In this document: positions 8,779-47,764 of the stretch, piece by piece
Position numbering within the stretch: the first letter of the stretch is position 1
Layout: the number at the start of each line of letters is the position of its first letter
NCBI GenBank assembly: GCA_017301975.1
Contig: JAFLEI010000008.1
Coordinates: 1-64,000 of the forward strand
Reading direction: 5' to 3'
DNA length: 64,000 bases
Source of the DNA: Verrucomicrobiota bacterium
GTDB lineage: Bacteria; Verrucomicrobiota; Verrucomicrobiia; Verrucomicrobiales; Verrucomicrobiaceae
The notes under the pieces: model-generated
The model's database searches: none
What the model saw: the letters and a program-made list of their open reading frames with translations, nothing else
Told to the model about the DNA's origin: nothing
Program-made: the position numbers and the translations under genes

Positions 8779-8847
8779 AGGCGAAGCAAAGTAGCCCTGT
8801 TTCTGTGGAACAAGGGGCCGCTCCGCCTGCTCCCTGACGCTTAACCA
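8779..8847 (+). repeat. Dispersed repeat family B, copy 2
   Basis: About 69 bases starting GGCGAAGCAAAGTAGCC and ending CTCCCTGACGCTTAACCAC, closely matching the copy at 5941-6007. The central hairpin is less perfect here (CCCTGTTTC against GGAACAAGGG). It lies between the convergent ends of the small hypothetical gene and the ABC-F gene. Confidence 0.7.
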
Positions 8848-8868
8848 CGTGAAACAAAACGGCCTCCC

Positions 8869-20690: not shown

Positions 20691-20743
20691 TCTGGAGACC
20701 CTGTCCCGCCTTCACGTGGGTTGCACTCATTCCATTGTCGGGA

Positions 20744-22648
20744 ATGGTTCCCTCTTTGAAACCAGCCCTGCTCATCCTTGCATCCTTCCTCGCTGCCGGT
20801 GCTCCATGGTCATGGCTGAACCCGCAGCTCTCCACCCTGGACCACCGCCAGCACGAGCTCCAGACCGCGCTGTCAAAACTCCCCGCCCTGCCCGCACCCC
20901 AGCCTCTGGAGCACGCAGGCTTCCACAGCGGCCTCGCCCCACAAGCCGACTCCGTCCGCTGGGTCCAGATCGACCTCGGTGCCGAGTACCCGCTCGACTC
21001 CGTCGTCGTCATCCCCGCCATGCTCGGCGTGGTCGAGGCCTACGGCTTCCCCAGTCGTTTCCGCATCGACGCCTCAAACGACCCCCTTTTTGCCGAATCC
21101 GACACACTTTTAGACCATTTCTCCGGCAATAACCCACCCTCATCCGCACCATGGTTCGTGGCAGGAAATGGAATCAAAGCACGCCACATCCGCTTCACCG
21201 CCACCACCCTTGCCGCCCAGCCCCGCGGCACCCGCCGCTTCATCTTCTGCCTCGGCGAACTCATGGTCTTCAGCCAGGGCCGCAACGTGGCCCTGCACGC
21301 CCAGGTCCTCGCCCCCAACTCCGTCGAAACCCTCCCCACCTGGTCCCCCCGTCACCTCGTCGATGGCGCTTACTCTCTCGGTCTCCCAGTGCATCCGGAT
21401 GAAACAAACGGCAACGGCTGGCACAGCGGTATCTCCACCACCGCCGACACCGCCAAATGGGTGCAGGCCGATCTGGGGGCACCTCGCGACATCCAGGAAA
21501 TCCGCCTCATTCCCGCACACCCCCGTGACTACCCCGAGCGCTCCGGCTTCGGCTTCCCCCGCCGCTTCAAAGTGGAAGCCGATGGCCGCACCATCTTCGA
21601 AAGCACAGACTTCCCCAATCCCGGCGACACCCCCGTGGCCTTTCCCACCCCCGGCCTGCGGGCTCAGACCATCCGTTGCACTGCCACGCAACTCTGGGAA
21701 CGTAGTGGCGACTTTGTGTATGCGCTTGCAGAACTGCAGGTCTTCGACGCAGGAAAAAACATCGCCCTTGAGTCAGTCATCACCAGCTCCGACGACACCA
21801 TCACCCCCTCATGGAGCCGCGCAGGCCTGATCGACGGACGCAGCAGCTCCGGCGTTCTTCTCGATGAAGTCTCATGGCTCGCCGATCTCTCCCAACGCCG
21901 ACAGATCACCGATGAGCTCACCACACTTGAAGTTCAGCGCATAGCCGCGCTAACCATTGCGCATAGCCGCGCAGCATGGCTCGCAAGCGCAGTGTTTTGC
22001 CTCGCCATCGTCATCGCCTGGCTGGCGGTCCTGCGGTCACGCCGTTCCCGCCGTCGCGAAATGGAATCTCTGCGCCACCGCATCTCGCGCGACCTCCACG
22101 ACGAAATCGGCAGCCACCTCGGCAGCATCCGCCTCATGTCAGAACTCGCCCTGCGCGATGGCTCCGTCTCCGATTCCCTCGAAGAAATCCACCGCCTCGC
22201 CGGTGAAGCCGCCGAGTCCATGCGCGGCATCATCTGGCTCGTCCGGGAAGGCGATTCGCCGCCGCTGACCAGCCTCGTCGAAGCCATGCGCCAAAGTGCC
22301 GCTGCCTTGATGCGGGACATTGACTGGCATCTTGAGGCGACAGAATGCAAATCCGCGACTGCTTCGCTCGAATTCCACCGGCAGGTCTTCCTCCTCTTCC
22401 GCGAAGCCGCGCACAACATCACCCGTCACGCGAATGCTGCACAGGTGCGCATCGAGGTGCACTGGAGGGCAAAACACTTCCATCTCCTCATCGAAGACAA
22501 TGGCTGCGGCTTTGATGCCGCAGCCGTCACCGCTGGAAATGGCCTCGCCAATCTCCACCACCGCGCCACCGTTCTCGGCGGCACCTTGCACATCACCAGC
22601 AGTCCCGGCAGCGGCACCTGCATCACCTTGGAGGCCGATTTCTCATGA
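20744..22648 (+). CDS. Sensor histidine kinase with discoidin-like extracytoplasmic repeats
   Basis: 634 residues from the ATG at 20744; a TTG at 20735 is an alternative. An N-terminal signal/anchor (about 5-22) is followed by two discoidin (F5/8 type C)-like repeats, with WVQIDLGAEYPLDSV near 73 and WVQADLGAPRDIQEIRLIPA near 239. A membrane helix spans about 411-430. The cytoplasmic part is a NarX/DesK-type kinase: HisKA_3 with His452 in SRDLHDEIGSHLG, then a HATPase domain with FREAAHNITRHANA, LLIEDNGCGFD and GNGLANLHHRA. The last four bases overlap the response regulator, its evident partner. The extracellular repeats suggest sensing of a carbohydrate or of a secreted protein. Confidence 0.85.
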   Translation: MVPSLKPALLILASFLAAGAPWSWLNPQLSTLDHRQHELQTALSKLPALPAPQPLEHAGFHSGLAPQADSVRWVQIDLGAEYPLDSVVVIPAMLGVVEAYGFPSRFRIDASNDPLFAESDTLLDHFSGNNPPSSAPWFVAGNGIKARHIRFTATTLAAQPRGTRRFIFCLGELMVFSQGRNVALHAQVLAPNSVETLPTWSPRHLVDGAYSLGLPVHPDETNGNGWHSGISTTADTAKWVQADLGAPRDIQEIRLIPAHPRDYPERSGFGFPRRFKVEADGRTIFESTDFPNPGDTPVAFPTPGLRAQTIRCTATQLWERSGDFVYALAELQVFDAGKNIALESVITSSDDTITPSWSRAGLIDGRSSSGVLLDEVSWLADLSQRRQITDELTTLEVQRIAALTIAHSRAAWLASAVFCLAIVIAWLAVLRSRRSRRREMESLRHRISRDLHDEIGSHLGSIRLMSELALRDGSVSDSLEEIHRLAGEAAESMRGIIWLVREGDSPPLTSLVEAMRQSAAALMRDIDWHLEATECKSATASLEFHRQVFLLFREAAHNITRHANAAQVRIEVHWRAKHFHLLIEDNGCGFDAAAVTAGNGLANLHHRATVLGGTLHITSSPGSGTCITLEADFS

Positions 22649-23277
22649 ACACGCTCTGGATCGTTGAAGACCACGCTGCATTTCGGCGCACGTTGGTGCG
22701 CGTCTTGAATGCCGAGGCTGACCTGAAATGTTCACGCGATTTCGACTCCTGCGAAAAGTTATTCGCCGCACTGGGCAAACCTGAGGTGCCCGATTTGATC
22801 CTCCTCGATGTCGGACTGCCCGGCATGAGCGGCCTTGAGGGCATTCGCTTGGTCAAGGAGCGCGCACCCAAAGCTCTCGTCGTCATTCTCACGGTCTTTG
22901 AGGACGATGACAAAGTCTTTCAGGCCATCTGCGCTGGTGCGGCTGGTTATCTTCTCAAAACCAGCAGTGGCACGGACATCTCGCAGGCAGTTCGGGATGC
23001 CCTGGCGGGTGGATCGCCAATGAATCCGCGCATTGCACGCCGAGTGCTTGAGATGTTCTCAAAGCTGGCTCCGAAGCAGAACGACTACGGCCTCAGCGAA
23101 CGGGAGAAGGAGATCCTACAGCTCATGACCACCGGGCTGATCAAAAAGGAGATCGCCGACAGGCTCACGCTCAGTATTCACACGGTCGATACTTACCTTC
23201 GGCGCATCTACGAGAAACTGGCGGTGAATACGCGCACCGGTGCCGTTGCCAAAGCGCTCAAAGAGGGGCTCGTGTGA
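22645..23277 (+). CDS. NarL/FixJ-family response regulator
   Basis: A 210-residue two-component response regulator. The receiver domain (about 1-120) has the acidic pair Glu8/Asp9 (LWIVEDH), phospho-acceptor Asp55 in LILLDVGLPGMSG, Thr83 in VVILTVFEDDD and Lys105 in GYLLKTSSG. The LuxR-type helix-turn-helix is at about 145-208 (LSEREKEILQLMTTGLIKKE, LSIHTVDTYLRRIYEKL). The ATG overlaps the kinase stop (ATGA at 22645-22648), so the pair is coupled. The next gene, a PSCyt protein 55 bases downstream on the same strand, is the most obvious candidate target. Confidence 0.92.
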   Translation: MNTLWIVEDHAAFRRTLVRVLNAEADLKCSRDFDSCEKLFAALGKPEVPDLILLDVGLPGMSGLEGIRLVKERAPKALVVILTVFEDDDKVFQAICAGAAGYLLKTSSGTDISQAVRDALAGGSPMNPRIARRVLEMFSKLAPKQNDYGLSEREKEILQLMTTGLIKKEIADRLTLSIHTVDTYLRRIYEKLAVNTRTGAVAKALKEGLV

Positions 23278-23332: not shown

Positions 23333-26266
23333 ATGCGTCTTCCTGTGCTCCTCGTCTTTGCCGCCGTGCCTGCCTTCGCGGTCGATTTTGTGCGCGAAGT
23401 GCAGCCGATTTTCAAACAGCACTGCTATGAGTGCCATGGGGCGAAAAAGCAGAAGAACGACTATCGGCTTGATATCAGGGCCGTCGCTCTGACGGGTGGC
23501 GAGGATCATGCGCCGAACATCGTTCCAAGGAAAAGCGCGGAGAGCCCGATTTTTCGTTTCGTGAGCGGTGCGGATGCGAAGATCTCGATGCCGCCGAAAG
23601 CAAAGCTCAGCAGCGCGGAGATCGATGTGATCAAACGCTGGATTGATGAAGGTGCCCTGTGGCCGGACGGCGTGGACGCGGCCAAGGTGGAGGACCGGCT
23701 GGATTGGTGGAGCTTCAAGCCGCTGTCGAAAAAGGATGGAAACATTGATGACTTGATTCGTGCGAAGCTCACGGAGCATGGTCTCAAACCCGCGAGACAG
23801 GCGGAGGTGCGCACCCTGATTCGCCGCTTGTACTTTGATCTCACCGGGCTGCCGCCTTCCTCAGCGGAGGTCGAACGTTATGCGGCGCTGCCGTATGAGA
23901 GGCTGGTGGATGATCTGCTGGCGTCACCGCGTTATGGTGAGCGCTGGGCGCGGCATTGGCTGGATCTCGTGCACTACGGAGAGACACATGGCTACGACAA
24001 AGACAAGCCCCGCATGAACGCCTGGCCCTACCGTGACTACGTCATTCGTGCGCTGAACAGCGACAAGCCTTATGCGCGTTTCATTGAGGAGCAGATTGCG
24101 GGGGATGTGCTGTATCCCGGCACCACGGATGGCATCACGGCGCTGGGGTTCATATCCGCGGGGCCGTGGGATTACATCGGGCATGCGGAGGTGCCTGAGT
24201 CGAAGCTGGATGGCAAAATCGCCCGGCATCTGGATCGCGATGACATGGTGCAAAACACGATGGGTGCGTTTTGCTCGCTCACCGTCGGTTGCGCGCAATG
24301 CCACTACCACAAGTTTGATCCCATCTCGCAGGAGGACTATTATTCGCTGCAGGCGGTTTTTGCCGCAATTGACCGCACGGATGTGAACTACTACCCTGAT
24401 GCTGCTTCGATGCAGCAGTTTGTGGATTTGGAGCAGCAACACAAGAAAATTGCTGCCAGCATCAAGGTGCTGGAGGGGCCGCTGAAGGAGAAAGCCGGTG
24501 AAGCCTACAAGGCACTCAGCAAGCGCATCGACGGTGCAGCCGACAAGGAATCCAAGACGAATCCGAATGTGAAGCCGGACTTTGGTTATCACAGCGCCAT
24601 CGCCATGGATCAAAACACGGTGAAGTGGGTGCAGGTGGATCTCGGCAGGAGCGTGGAGATCCAGCGCATTGTGCTGAAGCCCTGCTACGATGACTTTGGC
24701 GGCATCGGCGGTGGTTTTGGTTTCCCTGTGCGTTTCAAGGTCGAGGCGAGTGATGATCCTTCGTTTAAAACCGGCGTGAACCTCATCTGGCGGAAGCATG
24801 ACGCGACGTTCATGAACGACTTCAAAAACCCCGGGCTCACTCCCTTTGAAACGGGCACGGCAGAAGATGACGGCGCTCGGGGTAGATATGTGCGCGTCAC
24901 TGCGGTGAAGCTGGCGGAACGCAAGAACGACTACATCTTGGCGCTGGCGGAGATGGAGGTCTTTGCGGACAAAAATGGGGTGAATCTGGCTGCAGGGAGG
25001 CCGGTGACAGCGCTCGACAGCATTGAGGCCGCGCCACGATGGCAGAAAGACAATCTCACGGACGGCATCGCGCCTGAGGCACGCACGCAGGAGGACAAGC
25101 AGCGACTCATCAAAGAACGTGATGCCCTCATGCTCGCCCAGGCGGATGCTGCGACGCGCAAGCAGCTCAACGAGCTACGCAACAAGCGCGGCGTCATTGA
25201 TGCCGAAATAGCGAAGCTGCCTAAGCCTGGCAAGGTCTATGCGGGAGCCATTCACACGGGCACAGGGGCCTTTCGGGGAACGGGCAACGAAGGCGGGAAG
25301 CCACGGGTGATCCAGGTGCTCAAACGTGGCGACATCAAACAGCCGGCGAAGGAAGTGGGGCCGCAGAGCATCGTGGCGCTCAGTAAAGCTTTTCATGATG
25401 AGTATCAGCTTGCTGGCGAGGGTGAATCCGCGCGCCGAGCGGCCTTGGCGCGCTGGATCACCGACAAGAACAACGTGCTCACGTGGCGCAGCATCGTGAA
25501 CCGTGTGTGGCAGCATCATTTTGGGCGTGGGCTGGTCGATACCGCCAATGACTTTGGACGCATGGGCGGAAGGCCGAGTCATCCTGAACTGCTCGACTGG
25601 CTGGCGGTCACGTTTCGTGATGACCTCGGCGGCAGCTTGAAACGGCTGCACAAACTGATCGTGATGAGCGAAACGTACCAGCAGTCGTCAGACAAAGCGG
25701 AGCCGGCAGACGCGAACAACGTTTTTCTCTCCCACCAAAACCGCCGCAAGCTGGACGCGGAATCCATTCGCGATTCCATCCTCGCCGTGAGCGGCAAATT
25801 GGACCTCGCCATGGGCGGGCCGAGTTTTCAGGATTTCGTCATCGAGAAGCCGCAGCACAGTCCGCACTACGAGTATCAGCTCCATGATCCCGAAGACCCG
25901 AAATCCTGGCGGCGCAGTGTTTACCGTTTTATTGTGCGTTCGCAGCAGCAGCCCTTCATGACCACGCTTGATTGCGCCGACCCCTCCATGCGGGTGGAAA
26001 AGCGCAACGAATCGCTCAGCCCACTGCAAGCGCTGGCCATGATGAACAACGGACTCGTTGTCGCCATGGCAAAGCATTTTGCAGAGCGTGTGACGCGGGA
26101 AGCGCAAGGGCTTGAGGCTCAGATTGAGCATGCGTTTGTGCTGGCGCTCTCACGCAGTCCGACTGCGGATGAAATGATGCCGCTGCTTGAATACGCGCAA
26201 CGCGAAGGTTTGGAAAACACCTGCCGGGTGATTTTGAACCTGAATGAATTCAGCTTTGTGAACTGA
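23333..26266 (+). CDS. Secreted PSCyt1-PSCyt2-PSD1 protein with discoidin-like insert
   Basis: A 977-residue exported protein with a signal peptide (MRLPVLLVFAAVPAFA). PSCyt1 carries a haem site at Cys31-His35 (CYECH). PSCyt2/DUF1549 spans about 130-340, with RWARHWLDLVHYGETHGYDK and a second CxxCH in GCAQCHYHKFDPISQEDYY. Unlike the other two such proteins here, it has an insert at about 420-560 with a discoidin-like domain (KWVQVDLGRSVEIQRIVLKP) and a linker coil. PSD1/DUF1553 fills the C-terminal third (NRVWQHHFGRGLVDTANDFG). No DUF1501 gene follows directly; the nearest is at 29729. The function is probably extracytoplasmic and oxidative, but the substrate is unknown. Confidence 0.87.
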   Translation: MRLPVLLVFAAVPAFAVDFVREVQPIFKQHCYECHGAKKQKNDYRLDIRAVALTGGEDHAPNIVPRKSAESPIFRFVSGADAKISMPPKAKLSSAEIDVIKRWIDEGALWPDGVDAAKVEDRLDWWSFKPLSKKDGNIDDLIRAKLTEHGLKPARQAEVRTLIRRLYFDLTGLPPSSAEVERYAALPYERLVDDLLASPRYGERWARHWLDLVHYGETHGYDKDKPRMNAWPYRDYVIRALNSDKPYARFIEEQIAGDVLYPGTTDGITALGFISAGPWDYIGHAEVPESKLDGKIARHLDRDDMVQNTMGAFCSLTVGCAQCHYHKFDPISQEDYYSLQAVFAAIDRTDVNYYPDAASMQQFVDLEQQHKKIAASIKVLEGPLKEKAGEAYKALSKRIDGAADKESKTNPNVKPDFGYHSAIAMDQNTVKWVQVDLGRSVEIQRIVLKPCYDDFGGIGGGFGFPVRFKVEASDDPSFKTGVNLIWRKHDATFMNDFKNPGLTPFETGTAEDDGARGRYVRVTAVKLAERKNDYILALAEMEVFADKNGVNLAAGRPVTALDSIEAAPRWQKDNLTDGIAPEARTQEDKQRLIKERDALMLAQADAATRKQLNELRNKRGVIDAEIAKLPKPGKVYAGAIHTGTGAFRGTGNEGGKPRVIQVLKRGDIKQPAKEVGPQSIVALSKAFHDEYQLAGEGESARRAALARWITDKNNVLTWRSIVNRVWQHHFGRGLVDTANDFGRMGGRPSHPELLDWLAVTFRDDLGGSLKRLHKLIVMSETYQQSSDKAEPADANNVFLSHQNRRKLDAESIRDSILAVSGKLDLAMGGPSFQDFVIEKPQHSPHYEYQLHDPEDPKSWRRSVYRFIVRSQQQPFMTTLDCADPSMRVEKRNESLSPLQALAMMNNGLVVAMAKHFAERVTREAQGLEAQIEHAFVLALSRSPTADEMMPLLEYAQREGLENTCRVILNLNEFSFVN

Positions 26267-33803: not shown

Positions 33804-34382
33804 TCAGCCCTGAAGCGTCCAGCGACCGAGCTCCTGGAAAGTCTTTCTTTTCATGATGGCCTTGAGCAGGACGATTTCGTGCACCGTCCAGATCACGGGT
33901 TCCACATATTCTTCTTTAACGATTATGTCATCGTACAGCAGCGTGACATGCGGCGTGAAGTGGCCGGCTGGCTTGCCCATTTCGCGTTTCAAGCGTGAGG
34001 CGAAAGCTCGCAGGGCTTCATTGCCTTCGCGGTCTGCGAGGACACAGGGGAAATTGGATTTCTTCTCCGAGAAGCTTTTCACCCGGTCAAAGAGCACCTC
34101 AAAAGGACTGACACCTTTCACCACTTTGGCGGCGACCATTTGAGCCATTTGAACCGACCTCTCCAACGCATGTAGGGCATGATCGAAAGTATGCAGGGTG
34201 ACATGGAAGCGACCCGTGGGGCGGGGAACGCCCTTCAGCCCGTGTCTGGCCCTCACCTCGCATGCGCAGCGGGCGATCTGCTCTGCAGCCACCTGATCAG
34301 GAAGGATGGCTAGAAAGACGCTGGTGACCGGCTGCTCTTCAAGGGCGGCGGGCATGTCGGAAAATAGGAACTGGTCGTTCAT
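33804..34382 (-). CDS. thpR: 2'-5' RNA ligase-family 2H phosphoesterase
   Basis: 192 residues from the ATG at 34382 (MNDQFLFSDMPAALEE). The two HxT-type motifs of the 2H phosphoesterase fold are RFHVTLHTFDHA in the first half and HFTPHVTLLYDD in the second. Bacterial members hydrolyse or form 2'-5' RNA linkages or cyclic phosphodiesters in vitro. The biological substrate is not known. The opening TSVFLAILPDQVAAEQIARC is typical. It is divergent from the YhcH gene and convergent with the ceramidase-like gene. Confidence 0.82.
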   Translation of the reverse strand: MNDQFLFSDMPAALEEQPVTSVFLAILPDQVAAEQIARCACEVRARHGLKGVPRPTGRFHVTLHTFDHALHALERSVQMAQMVAAKVVKGVSPFEVLFDRVKSFSEKKSNFPCVLADREGNEALRAFASRLKREMGKPAGHFTPHVTLLYDDIIVKEEYVEPVIWTVHEIVLLKAIMKRKTFQELGRWTLQG

Positions 34383-34509
34383 GGACAGGGGGTGGAAGGC
34401 AGGGACACTCAGCGGGACTGATGACAACGCAATGCGACATGAGGCTCTCGGTTCACCTTTGTGCGTTGCACACGGCTCAAGCATGGTGTCGATTTAATGC
34501 CTTCCTCTC

Positions 34510-35016: not shown

Positions 35017-37629
35017 ATGAAGCTGACGCCTGCTGTTCTCTTTTGTTCCCTCACCGTGACCGTTCGCGGCGCGGATCGCATGCTCACGTTTGAGAAAGAC
35101 GTGCGCCCCATCGTGAAGGCCCATTGCACGCACTGCCATGGGGAGGAGGAGAAGCCCGAGGGCGGCGTGGATCTGCGGCTGCGACGTTTCATGGATCTGA
35201 AGCTGGACGGCGGCAGCCATGTCGTCGTGGCTGGACATCCGGAGCAGAGCGAGCTGGTGCGCCTGATCAAAAACGGGGAGATGCCGAAGAAGGGCAAGCA
35301 GGTGTCTGAGGCGGAGCTGGCGATCATTGAGCGATGGATCGCCCAAGGGGCCAAGACCGCGAGGCCCGAGCCGCTGGCGCTGGCTCCAGGACCGATGATT
35401 TCAGACGACGACCGCGAGTACTGGGCTTTTCAGCCGGTGAAACGTCCTGCGGTGCCTGCCAATGTGGATGCCAAGAAGGTGCGCACCCCGGTGGATGCCT
35501 TCCTGCTCAAATCGATGGCGGACAAGGGGCTCACCTTTGCGTCCGAGGCTGATAGGCGGACACTGATTCGCCGCGTGACGCTGGATCTCACCGGGCTGCT
35601 GCCGACGCCGGAGGAGGTGGAGGCCTTTGTGAGTGACAAATCACCGCTGGCCTATGAGCAACTGGTGGAGCGCCTGCTGGCCTCGAAAAACTATGGCGAG
35701 CGCTGGGCGCGCCATTGGCTGGATGTGGTGGGTTACGCGGATTCGAACGGCTATTCAGAGGCCGACTCGGTGCGACCTCAGGCGTGGCGTTATCGTGATT
35801 ACGTGATCCGTGCCATGAACACGGACAAACCGTGGAGTGAATTTATTCAGGAGCAGCTCGCGGGGGACGAGCTTGCCGGTGCGACGCATGGAGACTTCCA
35901 GCAGGCGGTGCTGGATCCGCATCGGACTGATCAGCTCATCGCCACCGCCTTCCTGCGCATGGCTCCTGATGGCACGGGCGATGCGCCGGATGATGCAAAA
36001 CTCGCGAAGAATCAGGTGATCGCCGAGCAGATGAAGGTCACGACCTCGTCTCTCATGGGCATGACGGTGGCGTGTGCGCAGTGCCACGATCATCGCTACG
36101 ATCCGATCACACAGGCCGACTATTACCGCCTGCGTGCCGTGTTTGATCCGGCCTACAACTGGGAGGCCTGGCGCGCACCTGCGCAGCGTCTGTATTCCCT
36201 CTACTCCCCGGAAGAACGAGCCAAGGCGGCTGCGATCGAAGTCAAAGCCAAGGAGATCGAGGCCGAAGCGCGTGCGATGAGCAAAAAGTTCCTCGATGAA
36301 ATTTTCGAGGTTGAGATCAAGAAGGTGCCCGAGGCGGAGCAGGCGGCCTTCCGTGTCGCCCGTGACACGCCGAAGGACAAACAGACGCCTGAGCAGAAGA
36401 CGCTCATCAAAAAGTATCCTTCCGCGCTCGCGACCTACTCGCTCGATCTCTACGACAAGAAGAAGCAGGACATCGTGGATGCGAAGATGGCCGAGGCCAA
36501 AAAGCTGCGGGAAACCAAGCCGGCGGAAGGCTTTGTGATGGCGCTGACGGAAGTGAAGGGCCAGGTGCCCGTGACGAAGCTTTTCAATCGCGGGGATCAT
36601 GATCAGCCCAAGCAGGCTTTGACCCCCGGAGAGCTGAGCATCCTCGCCAGCCCGGAGATCGAGCCTTTCAAACCGGTGCCGGTGAGCAGCGGCTCCAGTG
36701 GTCGCCGTCTGGCCTATGCGCAGTGGCTGACCAGCGGCAAACATCCGCTGACGGCGCGAGTGCTGGTGAACCGCTTCTGGATGAACCACATGGGACGTGG
36801 CATCGTGAACACGCCGGGTGATTTTGGCCGCCAGGGCGAGCTGCCCACGCATCCGGAACTGCTCGACTACCTCGCCGACGAGTTTGTGAAAAGCGGCTGG
36901 AAGCTGAAGTCCCTGCATCGCCTGATTCTGCTGAGCAACGCCTACCGCCAGTCCTCGGTGAACACTGCATCCATGCACAGCGATCCGGAAAACAAACTCT
37001 ACGCACGGTTCAAGCTGCGCCGTTTGGATGCCGAGACGCTGCGTGACTCTCTGCTGGCGGTTACCGGCACGCTGGTGCAGTCGAGCTACGGCCCGCCGAG
37101 CGGCATTGGTCGTGATCCGCAGGGCCGCGTCATCACCGGCATCGACAAGGGAACGATCACTCTGAACAAGGTCGATCCCGGCGGTGCGGACGACTTCCGC
37201 CGCTCCATCTATGTGCAGGTGCGCCGCAGCAAGCCCGTCACAGTGCTCGACACCTTTGATGCGCCCGTCATGACGCCGAACTGCGAGTTGCGTGCGCAGA
37301 CCACTGTGGCTCCGCAATCGCTGTTGCTCATGAACGACACCTTCGTGCTCGACAGCTCGCTCCGCCTCGCAGGCCGCCTGGAGGCTGCGGCCCCTGGCAA
37401 TCGCACGGAGCAGATCAAGCGCGCCTGGGAACTGCTCTTTGGCAAGCCGGCGACGCAGGCTGATGTCACACGCGGCATCGCCTATCTCGATGAGCAGACC
37501 AAGGCGCTCGCCCAGTATCACCACGACATCCAGCATCCGAAAGGGGTCGTGCCCAATCCGCCGCAGGAAGCCATGGCCAGTCTTTGCCAGATCCTTTGCA
37601 GCTCAAACCGCTTTTTATACGTAGAGTAA
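35017..37629 (+). CDS. Secreted PSCyt1-PSCyt2-PSD1 (DUF1549/DUF1553) protein
   Basis: 870 residues with a signal peptide (MKLTPAVLFCSLTVTVRGA). PSCyt1 haem motif CTHCH is at residues 37-41, followed by GEMPKKGKQVSEAELAIIER. PSCyt2/DUF1549 covers about 155-370, with RWARHWLDVVGYADSNGYSE and a second CxxCH (CAQCHDHRYDPITQADYYRL). A Lys/Glu-rich coiled linker lies at about 400-530. PSD1/DUF1553 forms the rest (RFWMNHMGRGIVNTPGDFGR, PNCELRAQTTVAPQSLLLMN). Its DUF1501 partner would normally come next, but the AT-rich STAND NTPase gene lies in between, and DUF1501 resumes at 40416. Confidence 0.9.
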   Translation: MKLTPAVLFCSLTVTVRGADRMLTFEKDVRPIVKAHCTHCHGEEEKPEGGVDLRLRRFMDLKLDGGSHVVVAGHPEQSELVRLIKNGEMPKKGKQVSEAELAIIERWIAQGAKTARPEPLALAPGPMISDDDREYWAFQPVKRPAVPANVDAKKVRTPVDAFLLKSMADKGLTFASEADRRTLIRRVTLDLTGLLPTPEEVEAFVSDKSPLAYEQLVERLLASKNYGERWARHWLDVVGYADSNGYSEADSVRPQAWRYRDYVIRAMNTDKPWSEFIQEQLAGDELAGATHGDFQQAVLDPHRTDQLIATAFLRMAPDGTGDAPDDAKLAKNQVIAEQMKVTTSSLMGMTVACAQCHDHRYDPITQADYYRLRAVFDPAYNWEAWRAPAQRLYSLYSPEERAKAAAIEVKAKEIEAEARAMSKKFLDEIFEVEIKKVPEAEQAAFRVARDTPKDKQTPEQKTLIKKYPSALATYSLDLYDKKKQDIVDAKMAEAKKLRETKPAEGFVMALTEVKGQVPVTKLFNRGDHDQPKQALTPGELSILASPEIEPFKPVPVSSGSSGRRLAYAQWLTSGKHPLTARVLVNRFWMNHMGRGIVNTPGDFGRQGELPTHPELLDYLADEFVKSGWKLKSLHRLILLSNAYRQSSVNTASMHSDPENKLYARFKLRRLDAETLRDSLLAVTGTLVQSSYGPPSGIGRDPQGRVITGIDKGTITLNKVDPGGADDFRRSIYVQVRRSKPVTVLDTFDAPVMTPNCELRAQTTVAPQSLLLMNDTFVLDSSLRLAGRLEAAAPGNRTEQIKRAWELLFGKPATQADVTRGIAYLDEQTKALAQYHHDIQHPKGVVPNPPQEAMASLCQILCSSNRFLYVE

Positions 37630-37718
37630 GGGCTAAAATAATGGCTTACGGTAAGTAAACTGCCGAGAGTGCGTGATTGGGTAGGATATTAGTTGGCATA
37701 TACCTAAATAGAAAATAG

Positions 37719-40337
37719 ATGTCTCGTATGCCCAATATTAAGCCGTTAGAGGACATCTGGCAAAGAGTTGAATTTTCAAAACACGACTCGGATTCTGAAC
37801 TGTTCGATGCACTCCTGCTTGCGGGAGAATGCGTTGTAAAGCTTGTGACTTTAGGATTTCTCGCAGCACTTCGACACGAACGATTTAACCAGAGATATCG
37901 ATTGTTGACGAAAATTGCCCAGGCAGATGGAATTGGCGAATGGGCAATGGTTTTGGATGACTTGGTCAAGGGCCCTCCTTCGCACGAATTACTTGATGAA
38001 TTGAAAGCACTGGAAAAAGAGGAGCTTACGCAAATATCAGCACCGGGTTCGTGGCAATATGAGGCAGTTACCTCACTTAAGTTAGTTCTTGATACACTCG
38101 GTTTGAAAGAGGACATCAGTCATCAGAAGATCGATGGTCGCCGTTGGTTCGGTTTATTTGCGACATTGCGAAATGGAACAAGAGGCCATGGCGCGACTCT
38201 CAGCAGCACCAAAAGTTTGGCATGCCCGATTCTTGAGCAGAGCATTCGACTCATCACTGATAATTTCAGTTTATTTCGCCGCGAATGGGCATTCTTGTTT
38301 CGTAACATTTCTGGCAAATATCGAGTAACTCCTATTTCGGAGGCGGTTTCATCCTTCGATGATATCAAGAGTGGCACACAACATAAATATATTAATGGAG
38401 TATATATATACTTCGACTCTCCTCAATATGTTGAACTGCTAGAATCAACCCCAGAGATTACGGATTTCTTTTTTCCAAACGGCAAGTTTGGCGACAAAAA
38501 ATTTGAATTTTTATCTTACGCTACCGGTGATCGCCATGATGGGAATTCATCTGCCTATCTTGCGCCCGCAGAGAACCTTCTAGCAAGTGAAACGAAAGGG
38601 TTAGGCAAGTTTGAGGTTTACGGTAATTGCTTTGCTAATATTCCAGGGGACCCGAAAGATTATATTCACAGACCCATCCTTGAACGCCGACTCGAAGAAG
38701 CATTGATGGCTGAAGAACAGGACCGAATTGTTACACTTTCTGGCCGTGGAGGAATAGGAAAAACCTCTTTAACACTCACGATTCTACACCAGGTGTCAGA
38801 GACAAAACGCTATGAAATGATATGCTGGTTTAGCTCACGGGACATTGATCTTCTTGTAGACGGACCACAATTTGTGAGTCCTGATGTTATTACCCAAGAT
38901 GATGTCTGTCGTTCATTCGTTCGTCTGATGCAGCCAGGTAATGCCAAGGAGAAAGGCTTCAGCGCCAAACAGTACTTCGAGAAACATCTTGGGCGGCAAG
39001 ATTGTTCAATAGGCCCAATATTGTTCGTATTTGATAACTTTGAAACCGTGCGTAATCCAGCTTCACTGTTTATGTGGCTGCACAGCTTCGTCAGGCATCC
39101 AAATAAGGTTTTGGTGACAGCTCGGCACAAAGAATTCACTGGGGATTTTGAGATTCCTGTGGAGGGTATGACCGAAACTGAATGCCTTAAATTAATTGCT
39201 GCTGTTGCGGGAAAGTTTGGAATCGCTGACTTATTGACTCCCGAATACATTACCCGACTCATTGATGAATCCGGTGGCCATCCTTATGTCATCAAGGTTC
39301 TGCTTGGTGAGGTGGCCAAGGCAAGAAAGCTTGTGGATATAAAACGAATTGTGGCGACTCAGGAGCGTATTCTGAATGCACTTTTCGAACGAACTTTTGC
39401 TGCACTCAGTCACGCTGCTCAGCGTATCTTTCTCACTTTGTGTAATTGGAACTCATCTGTGCCATCAGTGGCCATTCATGCAGTTCTGCTTCGTCCTGCC
39501 AACGAACGAATAAACGTTACTGCTGCGATTGAGGAACTGCGTAAAAGTTCATTGATCGAGGTAATCGGCAATAATGTGGTAGATGAAATTGTGACGTTGC
39601 CCTTGGCTGCAATGGAATTCGGAAAAACTAAACTGGCAGCAAGTCCGCTAAAGACCGCCGCCCAGGCAGACAGCCAACTTTTGCAACTCTTTGGTGCTGC
39701 TCAGAAATCAAGCCTTCTGGGTGCAGTTCAGTTAAGAGTTGAGCGACTTTTTACAAATGTTTCACGCATCGTGGCCAAGGAGCCATCAAGACTAAGCGAG
39801 TACCTTCCCATTCTTGAATTAGTTGCGCAGCAAAGCTCAGAAGCGTGGCTTGCATTAGCTTCTTTGTACGAAGAACAAGGCACATCGGATGGTTTGAAGA
39901 AAGCTCAGGAATGTGTCAGGCACTTTCTTGAGTCCGGAAGCGCGACTGAGTCGTCACTTCACTGGAGACGACTCGCCGACCTTTCTGAACAGATCGGTGA
40001 TTTAGAAAGTGCAGTTCATGCTTTAATTGAAATGTGTGAACGTAAAAACGTTCCATTTTTTGTCATCAGCAACGCTGCAAATAAAATTAATAACCTCTTC
40101 TCTCTCAAGAGACTGGAGTTGGATTCAGAAGAAAAACGAATCTTGATTGCAAGGCTCGCAAAAGTCATGTCATTGAGAATGAACGAAGCGAATGCGGACG
40201 ACTATTCTAGAATCGCGTATCTTTACCTTCACTTGAAAAATCAACAGGAGGCAAAGCGAATGACATCGGAAGGCATGAATCTAGACGGAGATAATTCGCA
40301 CTTAAAGCGCTTGGGTCGTAAACTTGCCATTTTTTAG
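37719..40337 (+). CDS. STAND (NB-ARC-like) NTPase with N-terminal HEPN-like region, candidate defence protein
   Basis: 872 residues. The N-terminal 200 residues are helical and contain RNGTRGHG (151-158), which fits the RN-x4-H pattern of HEPN ribonuclease domains. The central STAND NTPase has P-loop SGRGGIGKTS (341-350), Walker B ILFVFDNFE (434-442), a sensor-like KVLVTARHKEF (463-473) and a GxP-type GGHPYVIKVLL (519-529). The C-terminal part (about 700-870) has TPR-like helical pairs (SEAWLALASLYEEQG). Such effector-NTPase-repeat layouts are typical of anti-phage and abortive-infection proteins. The gene is visibly AT-richer than its neighbours and uses A/T-ending codons, pointing to recent transfer. 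A weak promoter (TTGGGT, 16-base spacer, TATACC at 37677-37704) precedes it. The target and trigger are unknown. Confidence 0.75.
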   Translation: MSRMPNIKPLEDIWQRVEFSKHDSDSELFDALLLAGECVVKLVTLGFLAALRHERFNQRYRLLTKIAQADGIGEWAMVLDDLVKGPPSHELLDELKALEKEELTQISAPGSWQYEAVTSLKLVLDTLGLKEDISHQKIDGRRWFGLFATLRNGTRGHGATLSSTKSLACPILEQSIRLITDNFSLFRREWAFLFRNISGKYRVTPISEAVSSFDDIKSGTQHKYINGVYIYFDSPQYVELLESTPEITDFFFPNGKFGDKKFEFLSYATGDRHDGNSSAYLAPAENLLASETKGLGKFEVYGNCFANIPGDPKDYIHRPILERRLEEALMAEEQDRIVTLSGRGGIGKTSLTLTILHQVSETKRYEMICWFSSRDIDLLVDGPQFVSPDVITQDDVCRSFVRLMQPGNAKEKGFSAKQYFEKHLGRQDCSIGPILFVFDNFETVRNPASLFMWLHSFVRHPNKVLVTARHKEFTGDFEIPVEGMTETECLKLIAAVAGKFGIADLLTPEYITRLIDESGGHPYVIKVLLGEVAKARKLVDIKRIVATQERILNALFERTFAALSHAAQRIFLTLCNWNSSVPSVAIHAVLLRPANERINVTAAIEELRKSSLIEVIGNNVVDEIVTLPLAAMEFGKTKLAASPLKTAAQADSQLLQLFGAAQKSSLLGAVQLRVERLFTNVSRIVAKEPSRLSEYLPILELVAQQSSEAWLALASLYEEQGTSDGLKKAQECVRHFLESGSATESSLHWRRLADLSEQIGDLESAVHALIEMCERKNVPFFVISNAANKINNLFSLKRLELDSEEKRILIARLAKVMSLRMNEANADDYSRIAYLYLHLKNQQEAKRMTSEGMNLDGDNSHLKRLGRKLAIF

Positions 40338-40368
40338 ATGCGGGGCTCTGCCCCGCCAACCGCATCTA
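40335..40368 (+). terminator. Hairpin at the end of the STAND NTPase gene
   Basis: The outer arms TAGATGCGG (40335-40343, including the stop codon) and CCGCATCTA (40360-40368) are exact complements. Alternatively, GCGGGGC (40340-40346) pairs with GCCCCGC (40350-40356) around TCT. The run of T lies before rather than after the stem, so it may instead mark the boundary of the inserted DNA. Terminator function is inferred. Confidence 0.5.
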
Positions 40369-40415
40369 TTAACGTTGTCAGATGCTGACCATTTCAAGCG
40401 TATGTTTAGCTTCTC

Positions 40416-41867
40416 ATGAACCGCCCCCAGCTTTGCTCCCGCCGTCACTTCCTGCATGCCAATGGCTACAGCCTTGGCACGCTGGCCCTTGCCTCGCTGC
40501 TTGAGCGCGATGGCCTGCTCGCCGCACCCGTGAAGCCGGAGAGCTTCACCGGCGAGATACGCTACGATCTGCATCCGAAGAAGCCGCACTTTGAGCCGCA
40601 GGCGAAGGCGATGATCTCCATGTTTATGATGGGCGGGCCGTCGCAGATGGACCTGTTTGATCCGAAGCCGATGCTCACGAAGTACGACGGGCAGAAATTT
40701 CCTGGTGAGATCAAGTATGACAATCTCGCGCAGGCTTCATCGAAGTGCTTTGGCTCGCCGTGGAAGTTCCAGAAGCACGGTGAGTGCGGCATGGAGATCA
40801 GCGAACTGCTGCCGAACCTGAGCAAGGTGGTGGATGAGATCACGCTGATCCGCTCGATGACTTCCGGCGTGAGCAATCACGCGCAGGGGCTGTATGCGAT
40901 GAACGGGGGGCGTATCACTGCGGGTCGTCCGGCGCTGGGTTCATGGCTGACCTATGGTCTCGGCAGTGAGACGGATGAACTGCCCGCCTACATGGTGCTC
41001 TCGCACCCCAACGGTCTGCCCACCTTCAGTGGTGAGCACTTCACCAATGGCTGGCTGCCTTCGCTGTTTCAGGGCACGCTCGTGCGCGCCACTGAGCCAC
41101 GCATTCTGAATCTCGACCCGCCGCCGTCTCTGGCCGGTGCGCCGCAGCAGCGCCAGCTTGATCTGCTGAAGGCTTTCAACGAGGACCATCTGGCCCTGCA
41201 CCCCGGCGAGCTTGATCTGCAGGCGCGTATTTCCAGCTATGAGCTCGCGGCCAAGATGCAGGTGGCTGCCAAGGAGGCGCTCGATATTTCGAAGGAGCCT
41301 GAGTATGTCAAAAAACTCTACGGCGTCGACAACCCGATCACCAAGGATTACGCCACGCGCTGCATCATCGCGCGCCGCCTCGTCGAGCGCGGTGTGCGCT
41401 ACGTGCAGGTGCTCAATGCAGGCCAGTCATGGGATCAGCATGGATCGCTCATCACGGCGCTGCCCAAGAACTGCCAGGCCACCGACCAGCCGAGTGCTGC
41501 GCTTCTCATTGACCTCAAGCAGCGCGGTCTGCTGGACAGCACCGTCGTCCACTGGGGCGGCGAAATGGGCCGTCTGCCGGTGCTGCAAAACGATGCGGGC
41601 CGCGAGAAGTGGGGCCGCGACCACAACACCTACGGCTTCAGCATGTGGATGGCCGGCGGCGGCTTCAAGAAGGGCTACGTGCATGGCGAGACGGATGAAT
41701 TTGGCCACAAAGCCGTGATCGACGAAGTGAAGCACTACGACTACCACGCCACGCTGCTGAAGACCTTTGGTCTCGACCACACCAAGCTCACCTACAAGCG
41801 CAACGGCCTCGCCGCCTCCCTCACGGACAATCAGGGCGCCAAGGTGGTGGATGAGCTGCTCGCATAG
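40416..41867 (+). CDS. Tat-exported DUF1501 protein
   Basis: 483 residues. Twin-arginine signal LCSRRHFLHANGYSLGTLAL, then a DUF1501 domain: MISMFMMGGPSQMDLFDPKP, SDELLPNLSKVVDEITLIRS-type region with Glu for Asp, VLNAGQSWDQHGSLITALP, and VHWGGEMGRLPVLQNDAGRE. The His-rich end YHATLLKTFGLDHTKLTYKR completes the phosphatase-like core. It probably pairs with the PSCyt protein at 35017, from which the STAND NTPase gene separates it. Its composition is GC-rich like the other cluster genes. The MFS transporter follows 24 bases later, likely in the same transcript. Confidence 0.9.
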   Translation: MNRPQLCSRRHFLHANGYSLGTLALASLLERDGLLAAPVKPESFTGEIRYDLHPKKPHFEPQAKAMISMFMMGGPSQMDLFDPKPMLTKYDGQKFPGEIKYDNLAQASSKCFGSPWKFQKHGECGMEISELLPNLSKVVDEITLIRSMTSGVSNHAQGLYAMNGGRITAGRPALGSWLTYGLGSETDELPAYMVLSHPNGLPTFSGEHFTNGWLPSLFQGTLVRATEPRILNLDPPPSLAGAPQQRQLDLLKAFNEDHLALHPGELDLQARISSYELAAKMQVAAKEALDISKEPEYVKKLYGVDNPITKDYATRCIIARRLVERGVRYVQVLNAGQSWDQHGSLITALPKNCQATDQPSAALLIDLKQRGLLDSTVVHWGGEMGRLPVLQNDAGREKWGRDHNTYGFSMWMAGGGFKKGYVHGETDEFGHKAVIDEVKHYDYHATLLKTFGLDHTKLTYKRNGLAASLTDNQGAKVVDELLA

Positions 41868-44407: not shown

Positions 44408-44629
44408 GGAGAGTCATTGTTTGCATCGTGTGTTGCGCAGACGCATTGGCGTGGGAAGCAACAGGTGTGAATCCTTCCGCACAGTTTCCATCGGCCTCGC
44501 TCGTGGCGTTTGCGCCAGATGAAGCGGACCAGTCTGTTTCATGGTGGATGAGCGGATATTCCCATTTTTTGCGGGTATGGCCACAGAGAGATGACTTCCT
44601 GGCGGCGTTGGTTCTTTTGCATAAGACCG

Positions 44630-47600
44630 ATGAAGCTGTCCGCCACCATTGCATGTCTGCTCACCGCCTCAGTCATGAGCGCGGAGGACATCTTCGTCTC
44701 CAAGGTGGAGCCCCTGCTGAAACAGCGCTGCTTTGACTGCCATTCGCATGAGAAAAAAATCAAAGGCGGCCTCGCTCTTGACTCGAAGTCAGGCTGGGAA
44801 AAAGGGGGCGAGAGCGGACCCGCCATTATTCCTGGGAAGCCGGAAGCAAGCCTGCTGATGCAGGCGCTGAGTCATGCGGAAAAGGATGTCAAAATGCCGC
44901 CGAAGAAGATGCTTCCTGGTTCGGAGATTGCGGTGTTTGCGGAATGGATTCGGCTTGGGGCTCCCGATCCGCGCGTGTCAGTGGCGAAGAGCAGCCAGGA
45001 TCTCGCCGCGAGTGACACCTGGGATGTTGAATTCCACAAGCGCCTCGACTGGTGGAGCCTCAAGCCCATGCGCAAAGTCGAACCGCCGAAGTTGGATGAT
45101 GTGGCATGGTCAAAAGAGCCGGTGGATCGTTTTGTGCGTGCGGCGTTGTCTGCCGCCAAACTCCAGCCGGCACCACCTGCGGAGCCTGGCGTGCTGAGGC
45201 GACGGCTTTCATTTGTGCTGACGGGGCTGCCGCCATCCTCGGCATCAGCATCCTTGTCTGACGAGGCCTACGTGGACATGCTGCTGCAAAGCCCCCGCTT
45301 TGGGGAGCACTTCGCACGGCACTGGATGGACGTCGTGCGCTACACGGACACCTATGGCTATGAATGGGACAATCCCGCCAAGGGTGCCTACGAGTATCGT
45401 GACTACCTCATCCGCGCCTTCAATGACGACATCAGTTTCGCTCAGTTCCTGCGCGAGCAGATCGCGGGCGATCTGCTGCCGAGGCCGCGAATCAACATGG
45501 CCTCACAAACCAACGAAAGCCTCATCGGTCCCATGTTTTATCATCTGGGGGAGCATCGTCATGGCAGCAGCCTGATGTTCAATGGCATTCATCAGGAGAT
45601 GGTGAACAACAAAATCGACGCCTTTTCCAAAGCCTTTCTCGCCACCACCGTGGCTTGCGCACGCTGTCACGATCACAAGCTCGAAGCCGTTTCACAGCAC
45701 GACTACTACGCTCTTGCCGCCATCTTCACCACCCCGCGCTGGACCTCCCGTGTGATCGATGCGCCGAATAAAAACGATGCAGCCATCGCGAAGCTCAAAG
45801 AGCTGCGCGCGGCGATTCGCGCCGAAGTGGCAGTTGCGTGGAAGAAGCCGTTCGAGCGGGGCTTCCTCAAACAGTGGGCGGAAACGCACGGTGCCGCATT
45901 GAAAGGCGTGGGTGCACCGCTTGCCGCGCCAGATCAGCTCACACAAAAGGCTGCCGAGTGGCGCAAGGCCCGCATGGCCGCACAAAATGCCAACGCCATT
46001 TTCAAACTGTTGGCCGATCCCGCCAGGGCTCAGCTTCCCCACGGCTGGGTGATGGAGGGCGATGGGATGAAACACGGCTTTGTCGAGGAAGGCACACCGC
46101 TCATCGCGCTCGAAGGCGATGCCGTCATTGCGCGTCTTCTGCCGCGTGGCTGGCACACGCACGCCTTGTCCTCCAAGCTGCCTGGCGCGCTGCGCATGCC
46201 GCCTGAGCATCTCATCCCGGGCAGGTTCGTGAGCCTTGACCTCGCGGGCGGGGAATTTGGCGGCCAACTTGTGATTGATGACCATGCGTTTCAAAATGAA
46301 ACCATCGCTTTCTACACCAACACCATACCCGCATGGCGGAGTTTTGGTGATGCTGAGCTGAAGAATGGGGTGCAGCAGGTCACGGCGGAGTTTGCCACCT
46401 CGTCTTTGAACCCGAATTTCCCACCACGCACCGGTCTGGCAAAGGGTCTCAAGAATGACGACTTCGGCTACGATAAACGCAGCTGGCTGAGCGTCTGTGG
46501 CATTGCCTCCCATGACAAGGCAGGCACGCCGCAGGATGAACAAAATGCATTTGCCGGTTTGTATGACGCTGCCGATTCGCCGGACGCATGGCAGCGCATA
46601 GCGGCATGGTTCAACTCTGCTGTCACGCGGTGGCGCGAGGGCAAAACGCAGCCGGGAGATCAGCCCGTTTTAGACTGGCTGCACAGCAGTGGTTTGCTGC
46701 CAAACAAGGCGGAACCCGGAAGCAGGATCGCGACACTGGTGGCCGAATATCGGAGCGCCGAGGCAGGCATCGGTTTTCCGCGTACGGTCAACAGCATGGA
46801 CCAGCGGGAAACGGCCCCGGCCAGCTACCCGCTCAATGTGCGCGGCAATGTGGATGTGACCGGCACGCTGGTGCAGCCGGGATTTTTGAAAATGCTGGAC
46901 CCCAAGGCGCGAGTGTCGGACCGGCTGACGCTTGCCGATTCGCTGCTGGATCCCGAGCATCCGCTGACGGCGCGTGTCTATGTGAACCGAGTATGGCAGT
47001 GGCTCTTTGGCACCGGACTTGTGGCCACCCCGGATGATTTCGGACGGCTCGGAGTCATGCCTTCGCATCCCGAACTGCTCGACTGGCTGGCGCGAGAGTT
47101 CATTCGCGAAGGCTGGTCCACTAAAAAATTGGTGCGGCGTCTGGTCTTAAGCCAGACCTTCCGGCAGTCCGGTCTCGTGGCCGATGCCGCGCGCGAACGT
47201 GATCCGGAGAACCGCCTGCTGCATCACTACCCTACGCGGCGTTTGGAGGCGGAGGCCATTCGTGATTCACTGCTCGCGATCTCTGGTCGTCTCGACCCGC
47301 AGCATTATGGTCGGCCTGTCCTGCCGTTTCGCAGTGCCGAGGACGCGGCCAAGCGCCTTTTCAGCGGTCCGCTCGATGGTCATGGCCGCCGCTCGATCTA
47401 TCTGCAGATGTCCATCATGGACCCGCCGAAATTTCTCGTCGGCTTCAATCTTCCAGATCTGAAACTGCCTGCCGGCAGACGAGACGTGACGAATGTTCCC
47501 TCCCAGGCGCTGATCATGCTGAATGATCCGTTTGTGAACGAGATGGCCAAATGCTGGGCGGCTGGTTTGCTAAAAAACAAGGACATGAACCGCGAAGATC

Positions 47601-47764
47601 GTGTGCGTCAGATGTTTGAGCGGGCATTGGCTCGTGAGCCGAATGCAGCCGAGTTGAGACGCTGGACTGCCGCCTTGCAGGATTTTGGCGGAGACACGCC
47701 GGATGCATGGGAACGCCTTGCCCATGCGTTATTCAACACCAAGGAGTTTCTCTACTACCGCTGA
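44630..47764 (+). CDS. Secreted PSCyt1-PSCyt2-PSD1 (DUF1549/DUF1553) protein, long form
   Basis: 1044 residues from the ATG at 44630 (MKLSATIACLLTASVMSA, signal peptide). PSCyt1 has a CxxCH at Cys34-His38 (CFDCH) and KMPPKKMLPGSEIAVFAEWI. PSCyt2/DUF1549 follows, with HFARHWMDVVRYTDTYGYEW and a second CxxCH (CARCHDHKLEAVSQHDYYAL). A large middle insert (about 390-690) has beta-rich segments such as FVSLDLAGGEFGGQLVIDDH, perhaps a carbohydrate-binding module. PSD1/DUF1553 closes the chain (NRVWQWLFGTGLVATPDDFG). Its DUF1501 partner starts one base after this stop, the intact form of the pairing. Confidence 0.9.
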   Translation: MKLSATIACLLTASVMSAEDIFVSKVEPLLKQRCFDCHSHEKKIKGGLALDSKSGWEKGGESGPAIIPGKPEASLLMQALSHAEKDVKMPPKKMLPGSEIAVFAEWIRLGAPDPRVSVAKSSQDLAASDTWDVEFHKRLDWWSLKPMRKVEPPKLDDVAWSKEPVDRFVRAALSAAKLQPAPPAEPGVLRRRLSFVLTGLPPSSASASLSDEAYVDMLLQSPRFGEHFARHWMDVVRYTDTYGYEWDNPAKGAYEYRDYLIRAFNDDISFAQFLREQIAGDLLPRPRINMASQTNESLIGPMFYHLGEHRHGSSLMFNGIHQEMVNNKIDAFSKAFLATTVACARCHDHKLEAVSQHDYYALAAIFTTPRWTSRVIDAPNKNDAAIAKLKELRAAIRAEVAVAWKKPFERGFLKQWAETHGAALKGVGAPLAAPDQLTQKAAEWRKARMAAQNANAIFKLLADPARAQLPHGWVMEGDGMKHGFVEEGTPLIALEGDAVIARLLPRGWHTHALSSKLPGALRMPPEHLIPGRFVSLDLAGGEFGGQLVIDDHAFQNETIAFYTNTIPAWRSFGDAELKNGVQQVTAEFATSSLNPNFPPRTGLAKGLKNDDFGYDKRSWLSVCGIASHDKAGTPQDEQNAFAGLYDAADSPDAWQRIAAWFNSAVTRWREGKTQPGDQPVLDWLHSSGLLPNKAEPGSRIATLVAEYRSAEAGIGFPRTVNSMDQRETAPASYPLNVRGNVDVTGTLVQPGFLKMLDPKARVSDRLTLADSLLDPEHPLTARVYVNRVWQWLFGTGLVATPDDFGRLGVMPSHPELLDWLAREFIREGWSTKKLVRRLVLSQTFRQSGLVADAARERDPENRLLHHYPTRRLEAEAIRDSLLAISGRLDPQHYGRPVLPFRSAEDAAKRLFSGPLDGHGRRSIYLQMSIMDPPKFLVGFNLPDLKLPAGRRDVTNVPSQALIMLNDPFVNEMAKCWAAGLLKNKDMNREDRVRQMFERALAREPNAAELRRWTAALQDFGGDTPDAWERLAHALFNTKEFLYYR

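Follow-up and report, generated by a model that had tools for sequence, protein, structure and literature searches.

A one-gene insert in a Verrucomicrobiota genome encodes a candidate NLR-like suicide switch with a HEPN-like N-terminus

The 64,000-nucleotide stretch of Verrucomicrobiota contig JAFLEI010000008.1 (assembly GCA_017301975.1) analysed here, hereafter the window, carries a gene for an 872-residue protein that we read, at a probability of roughly 0.6, as a single-gene NLR-like suicide switch in which sensing would lead to NB-ARC assembly, pairing of HEPN ribonucleases (RNases) and arrest of the infected cell. The protein joins a HEPN-like N-terminal domain, an NB-ARC nucleotide-binding core and C-terminal TPR-like repeats, in that order. 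Its HEPN-type and NTPase motifs are invariant among relatives, its centre has a predicted NB-ARC fold, its presumed sensor is the fastest-evolving region, and the gene was acquired singly. Few genomes carry the family, but these span many bacterial phyla.

The mechanism that we propose starts from a resting state in which the NB-ARC core would keep the protein inactive. Binding of an infection product, or of a host molecule altered by infection, to the TPR-like repeats would act as the trigger, and ATP-dependent assembly of the core would draw the N-terminal domains together. HEPN RNases are usually active as dimers, and for that reason assembly could build RNA-cutting sites from R151 and H157; cleavage of cellular RNA would then arrest the infected cell ahead of phage production. 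The HEPN membership of the N-terminus, the RNase activity, the oligomerisation, the trigger and the phage-defence role are the parts of this model that we infer.

The N-terminal motifs stand out upon alignment of the window protein with 48 intact proteins from genome loci of the family (49 sequences, alignment A1). Within residues 1–190, only six columns are invariant: E37, W75, R151, N152, H157 and G158. The RNGTRGHG segment at 151–158, which a first-pass annotation of the sequence had matched to HEPN RNases, supplies four of the six, because of which we regard this HEPN-type motif, on conservation grounds, as more than chance. In HEPN notation it reads Rx5H in 48/49 sequences and Rx4H in L060. 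The available excerpt of a survey of HEPN proteins (Anantharaman et al. 2013, PMC3710099) describes the residue after the arginine as typically N, D or H, and a second motif, Ex3[KR], in many families. All 49 sequences possess Rx4–6H with a polar residue following the arginine, and all possess the acidic second motif, with E37 and either lysine or arginine at position 41.

The AlphaFold2 model of the N-terminus is a confident all-helical domain (predicted local distance difference test, pLDDT, 94.0; predicted template modelling score, pTM, 0.90), and HEPN proteins make up 8 of the 50 rows listed for it by VIA-align. The list is headed by Roquin (4txa, Z 7.9, root mean square deviation 3.4 Å, 116 residues) followed by MtlR (3brj, Z 6.0, 3.5 Å, 119 residues), the latter level with a designed bundle; further down are HepS (9oij, Z 5.4, 3.7 Å, 119 residues), the MtlR-type 3c8g (Z 5.2), Csm6 (8jh1, 5yjc and 5fsh, Z 4.5–4.9) and AbiV (9bj6, Z 4.7). 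The Roquin, HepS and Csm6 structures we take to be HEPN folds, and AbiV was counted as HEPN from the title of its structure entry. MtlR appears as a HEPN protein in the excerpted survey (PMC3710099).

For the centre of the protein, the Pfam NB-ARC profile matches residues 324–540 with 46.6 bits against a curated cut-off of 23.5, and is the sole Pfam family to exceed its own cut-off in the 872-residue protein. The P-loop, Walker B and GGHP motifs of a STAND core lie where the first-pass annotation had placed them, with exact positions of G342 to K348-T349 for the P-loop core, 435–439 for LFVFD of Walker B and 519–523 for GGHPY; K348, T349, F436–D439 (D439 among them) and G520–Y523 do not vary across A1. 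The predicted model combines nucleotide-binding, helical and winged-helix folds. The best structural match is a wheat resistosome (9h2l, Z 20.1, 3.1 Å, 312 residues, over 297–656), and CED-4 (2a5y) aligns with Z 18.6 (3.3 Å, 313 residues); stretches within residues 297–700 match plant resistosomes and CED-4 at Z 14–20, and Apaf-1 and Dark at Z 14–16. The predicted fold of the centre is of the NB-ARC/apoptosome type. A Foldseek search with the full model returned the STAND-TPR protein 6mfv at the top (E 1.4e-10, with template modelling scores of only 0.18 and 0.23), then CED-4. The bNACHT family fits poorly, with Pfam NACHT reaching E 0.13 and 12.5 bits against a cut-off of 26.7. As for Avs, no PADLOC family matches the window protein at E ≤ 1, and none of the ten PADLOC families weakly matched by A1 bears an Avs name; the PADLOC library presumably includes Avs models. 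NCBIfam likewise has no model matching the window protein at E ≤ 0.001, in keeping with the first-pass annotation, which could place it in no named defence family.

For the C-terminal helices, the family profile finds designed TPR proteins, with a whole-sequence E down to 7.6e-16 and no single stretch of that row passing 0.01. The helical repeats proposed at first pass are in this sense TPR-like, though no Pfam TPR model scores above its cut-off in the window protein. Mean pairwise identity, calculated from 1,176 pairs, peaks at 50% in residues 319–480, is 46–47% in the two segments that follow, 42% in the linker and 38% in the N-terminal domain, and drops to 30–32% in the TPR part, which is the fastest-evolving region of the protein. 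This profile fits a constant switch joined to a diverging sensor; TPRs often diverge anyway.

The gene was acquired as a one-gene insert, as a comparison of 19 DUF1501 loci from related genomes demonstrates. At 12 of these, all in the same genus, the site is empty: the DUF1553 and DUF1501 genes adjoin directly, with the TGA stop of the first overlapping the ATG start of the second (ten by BLAST coordinates; L089 and L090 additionally by reading of the junction). The other same-genus loci have a different upstream context (L084, L091 and L092) or are cut (L094), while the other-genus loci have diverged at the junction (L093 and L095) or align in part only (L096). In the window, the DUF1553 gene still ends in Val-Glu-stop, the DUF1501 ATG is intact, and the gene under study is the only long open reading frame on its own strand within the 2,790-bp insert; it stands alone, as had been noted at first pass. 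The GC content of the gene is 44.6%, against 60.6% for the rest of the window. At 57 of the 58 family loci whose flanking sequence exceeds 4 kb, the gene has a higher AT content than its surroundings (10 points on average, more than 5 points at 50 loci), and its GC content follows that of the host (r 0.79).

Comparison of nine locus pairs extends the picture of a gene shared singly. Four close pairs from different hosts (in order of locus number, L016/L050, L020/L032, L023/L047 and L027/L029) align over ~2.6 kb. By host and in order of falling identity, the four are Afipia/Ancylobacter at 82%, Streptomyces zingiberis/S. anulatus at 80%, Blastococcus/Actinotalea at 77% and Salinimicrobium/Dokdonia at 76%. 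Their homology starts 16–94 bp upstream of the gene, with start codons as called by the scan and that of L032 provisional, and stops somewhere from 34 bp ahead of the last base to 6 bp past it; the flanks are without homology except for one 45-bp stray match. Alignment is confined to the gene also for L016/L045 and L012/L015 (67–68%) and for L012/L059, in which a contig ends inside the gene. Exceptions to gene-only sharing are S. anulatus/S. halstedii (L047/L049), with 8.2 kb in common including the downstream side, and the viral contigs L067 and L068, identical over their overlap. Domain matches, the predicted model and the gene-only homology of the close pairs support the effector–NTPase–sensor order and the single-gene unit suggested by the first-pass annotation.

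Within the insert, no recombinase gene was seen, nor were transposon-marking repeats; no target duplication is visible at the junction, and a search within each insert end detected no direct repeats and one inverted pair. The mode of movement that placed a lone gene so precisely at an overlapping stop and start is unexplained by any recombinase or repeats seen. A perfect 12-nt inverted repeat has one arm at the end of the DUF1553 gene (37581–37592) and the other inside the gene under study (37755–37766), and may be chance or an insertion trace.

To collect the family, 84,980 species, each represented by one genome, were scanned with a pattern-based search. The scan yielded 63 loci, which is a lower bound, as it recovers part of the existing members; 62 of these match beyond the NTPase alone or at 32–66% identity, and the match of L064 is confined to the NTPase at 23% identity. 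Internal stops fall within the match at six loci (L003, L033, L048, L051, L055 and L062), which were left out of A1 together with seven partial ones (L018, L031, L046, L053, L059, L061 and L063), L049 as a near-copy of L047, and L064. Proteins in A1 are 31–61% identical to the window protein, the closest aligned relative (61%) being from an Omnitrophota bin. Members come from many phyla and form clusters in Actinomycetota and Bacillota: a quick tree has 17 phyla among its 47 rows with a named phylum and 24 changes of phylum label (at least 16 are required; shuffled labels averaged 32.7, and none of 200 shuffles was as low), the labels being submitters' titles and the bins possibly including stray contigs. 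In the window's phylum, the gene is present in 1/387 sampled genomes, the source genome itself (E ≤ 1e-60), and 55 other related genomes gave five matches, all to the NTPase only. The N-terminal profile, run over the 387 genomes in search of the effector in other fusions, found, besides the window gene, a single 41-residue match containing two stops. Effector swaps were sought with a 30-row linker–NTPase–winged-helix profile; the 367 genomes searched from the window's phylum and the 299 from that of the Alicyclobacillus relative each gave, as a set, one match, the known gene. Over the 49 aligned proteins, the commonest of the weakly matched PADLOC families is TRIP13 (nine members, best E 9e-5), and NCBIfam matched a TPR model in 29, AfsR in four, ArsA in three and another TPR model in one.

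Several results weigh against the suicide-switch reading, among them those for the N-terminus. VIA-align Z values of up to 7.9 lie in the range reached by unrelated helical bundles, rhodopsins scoring up to 5.7 and the designed bundle 6.0 in the same list; rhodopsins and receptors are interspersed among the HEPN rows, and none of these rows reaches the trusted level for helical-bundle matches. The fold and profile searches proposed by the first-pass annotation were run. Foldseek with the N-terminal model returned nothing at E ≤ 0.001 in the PDB and BFVD, Pfam HEPN models matched none of the 49 N-terminal domains, and no Pfam family gives the N-terminus a credible match. Hhalign assigned a probability of 0.8% to seven Swt1-like HEPN sequences and 1.6% to two others, with controls at 0.1–2.7%, the profile–profile comparison covering these two small sets, a minority of HEPN families. 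Against PDB sequences the N-terminal profile produced one chance match (E 0.45). These results leave room for an N-terminus that is an inactive HEPN-like domain or an unrelated helical adaptor, the protein still being an NLR-like defence switch that acts through binding or an unlinked effector; the available excerpt of PMC3710099 describes loss of the motif or of activity in some HEPN families. We judge this version unlikely. Invariant R, N, H, E and K/R in a domain so diverged look like catalysis, and no partner gene recurs beside the family: when 896 proteins encoded near the gene at 69 loci (62 genome, 7 viral) were compared all against all, the largest neighbour family, a phage integrase, reached 7 loci. 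On motif grounds, the N-terminus is probably HEPN, with membership short of proof; the first-pass HEPN call stands as far as two conserved motifs and a weak structural similarity carry it, and finds no counterpart in profile or Foldseek searches.

The same caution applies to the rest of the protein. ORC/Cdc6 proteins also match the NTPase at Z 14–16, so the NTPase fold by itself is no proof of an immune role, and because the pTM of the full-length model is 0.62 (mean pLDDT 89.3), its predicted domain folds are usable and their arrangement is not reliable. Experiments on the protein or its family were not found, and among the matches listed in searches of CC-licensed PMC papers, no title or opening of an abstract describes the family.

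Given the proposed defence role, we examined which genes accompany the family. Eight neighbour families recur in at least three loci: the tyrosine integrase, ABC proteins (4 loci), a ResIII-type helicase group (4), HsdM (4), HsdR (3), a C5 DNA methylase (3) and an epimerase (3), all named by Pfam of one or two representatives, and an eighth that by position consists of pieces of the 872-residue-type gene itself. Mobile-element and restriction-modification (R-M) genes recur beside the family, thinly. R-M or integrase markers are present at 5/25 test loci versus 2/25 matched same-contig controls, with markers picked from the test loci and so favouring the test side; 8 of the 37 remaining loci, which have no matched controls, carry a marker. 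PADLOC families matched number 100 for 116 neighbours versus 362 for 114 control proteins (families, not proteins), in scans of 21/25 locus pairs that covered 116/140 neighbours and, for PADLOC, 114/138 controls, with Pfam run on the test side only. The island check suggested at first pass thus gives no clear enrichment of defence genes, a point against the defence reading. The refuting case named at first pass, homologues found only beside metabolic genes and not enriched in islands, is neither borne out nor dispelled by these neighbourhoods. Near the Myxococcus relative, ~4 kb away, L004 encodes a DRT-type reverse transcriptase (UG5-nitrilase, PADLOC E 9e-125; 2596–5715, minus strand).

Without clear enrichment, and with most scanned neighbours being ordinary genes, the protein could instead be a STAND regulator or the cell's own stress-response switch, acting in RNA turnover, dormancy or signalling; 4/49 members weakly match the AfsR regulator model through shared domains (best E 3.9e-5). 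We find this an unlikely account. The gene is rare, patchy and recently inserted, and a housekeeping regulator would be expected to be less mobile; moreover, there are no conserved partner genes, and Pfam places no DNA-binding domain above cut-off in the window protein. Phage defence is plausible: the anti-phage role put forward at first pass agrees with the gene's mobility and AT-richness, its diverging sensor and the two relatives borne by phages, with the neighbourhoods not clearly enriched in defence genes.

Eight IMG/VR contigs carry relatives, two of them in a plain phage setting. In L066, the relative (7286–9922) belongs to a temperate-phage early region, flanked by exonuclease genes on one side and a CI-like repressor on the other; the region also has an integrase, ParB and an O-like replication gene. 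The relative in L071 has a head gene and the large-subunit gene of terminase as neighbours. In L065 and L069, the distance to an integrase is at most about 1.4 kb and 4 kb, respectively. Such settings could mean that the gene serves the mobile elements that carry it, as prophages or plasmids excluding competitors, or is an addiction gene, an explanation that overlaps with defence and that we consider improbable: the window copy and the four close pairs share no other mobile gene, and no antitoxin-like partner recurs. No relatives were found among 50,697 phage records or 72,556 plasmid records, which speaks against mobile-element service and also against phage defence. Table 1 collects the features of the gene and its insertion site.

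Table 1. Features of the candidate switch gene and its insertion site in the window (residues are those of the 872-residue protein).
Feature	Position	Strand	Basis
Coding sequence, HEPN-like/NB-ARC/TPR-like protein, 872 residues	37719..40337	+	ATG start, without internal stop; aligned with 48 intact full-length relatives
All-helical HEPN-like N-terminal domain, residues 8–187	37740..38279	+	AlphaFold2 model; VIA-align rows
E37-x3-K41, fits HEPN Ex3[KR] motif	37827..37841	+	E 49/49; K 46/49, R 3/49; motif from excerpt of PMC3710099
RNGTRGHG, residues 151–158, HEPN-type R/H motif	38169..38192	+	R, N, H each 49/49
Mostly beta linker region, residues 190–306	38286..38636	+	DSSP of model
NB-ARC nucleotide-binding core, residues 319–560	38673..39398	+	Pfam NB-ARC; structural matches
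P-loop, residues 342–349	38742..38765	+	Alignment
Walker B, residues 434–442	39018..39044	+	Alignment
GGHPY segment, residues 519–529	39273..39305	+	Alignment
Segment 561–640, putative winged-helix position	39399..39638	+	Within stretch aligned to CED-4/NLRs
C-terminal helical TPR-like repeats, residues 641–868, presumed sensor	39639..40322	+	DSSP, profile; lowest identity of protein
GC-rich hairpin at gene 3' end, core single-copy in genome	40335..40368	+	z −2.7 for 40320–40415
2,790-bp insert absent from relatives	37626..40415	.	Empty site in 12 same-genus genomes
Left flank host gene, PSCyt1/DUF1549/DUF1553 protein	35017..37629	+	Pfam
Right flank host gene, DUF1501 protein	40416..41867	+	Pfam; 96–99% identical in five best-matching same-genus genomes

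Across the window, no tRNA genes or Rfam families were found. A promoter and terminator scan gave nothing beyond the level of shuffles. The surroundings hold several other features. Outside the insert, a 2'-5' RNA ligase/LigT-like phosphoesterase gene (33804–34484, minus strand) precedes the candidate switch gene by 3.2 kb. DUF1549/DUF1553 genes are repeated (23333–26266, 35017–37629 and 44591–47764), as are DUF1501 genes (at 29708, 40416 and 47685), the source genome as a whole having 20 or more DUF1501 matches at E ≤ 1e-100. A histidine kinase with F5/8-type C domains (20735–22648) is followed by a LuxR-type response regulator (22645–23277).

Among known systems, the likeness to CED-4, Apaf-1 and plant NLR resistosomes is in the NB-ARC core, at Z 14–20 over about 220–360 residues; these come from animals and plants and carry CARD, TIR or coiled-coil effectors, not RNases. 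AVAST (Avs) proteins also combine an effector, a STAND NTPase and a repeat sensor, and Avs3 (8dgc) is among the Foldseek matches. However, it ranks below CED-4 and Apaf-1 there, its length is much greater (2,028 residues in 8dgc), and AVAST has no PADLOC match in the window protein. A TIR-STAND-TPR protein of P4-like satellites, described as an anti-phage system and likened to NLRs by its authors in the available excerpt of Rousset et al. 2022 (PMC9122126), has the same order in one protein, namely an N-terminal effector, a central STAND NTPase and C-terminal TPRs. It differs in its TIR effector and its satellite hotspots, whereas the protein studied here has a HEPN-like effector and is mostly encoded by a lone chromosomal gene. 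DS-11, found by DefensePredictor, is a one-protein CBS-HEPN system whose HEPN residues are required for defence (available excerpt of PMC13092281); going by that description, it likewise places a HEPN effector under a nucleotide-binding domain in a single protein, with CBS domains in place of NB-ARC and TPR.

A close layout is in the HEPN survey, whose Table 1 lists HEPN fused to STAND ATPase, TPR and S1 (Npun_F6454, MED222_16016 and Desac_1927) as a Swt1-like family, and whose excerpt predicts a defence or suicide role for HEPN proteins (PMC3710099). By description, that group shares HEPN, STAND ATPase and TPR in one protein, its motif mostly intact; unlike it, the window protein has an N-terminus matching neither Pfam HEPN_Swt1 nor the seven Swt1-like sequences, and no S1 domain by Pfam. 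Because the domain set was already listed in 2013, yet is without a fitting PADLOC model or a credible Pfam match for its N-terminus here, the family is a variant on a known layout.

Taken together, a bolder model can be drawn, which we hold only tentatively and think doubtful as a whole: a bacterial resistosome with an RNase tip, in which a one-protein immune receptor would use NB-ARC assembly to activate paired HEPN sites, and which would cross phyla as a bare single-gene unit that lacks its own recombinase and inserts between genes, mostly outside classical defence islands and missed by island-based screens. If the suicide-switch reading is right, one bacterial protein would couple an RNase output to the NB-ARC switch known from apoptosomes in animals and resistosomes in plants. 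The family would then offer a simple test of NLR-type assembly activating a dimer-only enzyme, and would be a defence family recognised by how it moves and by its conserved motifs, in a case where searching defence islands yields no clear signal.

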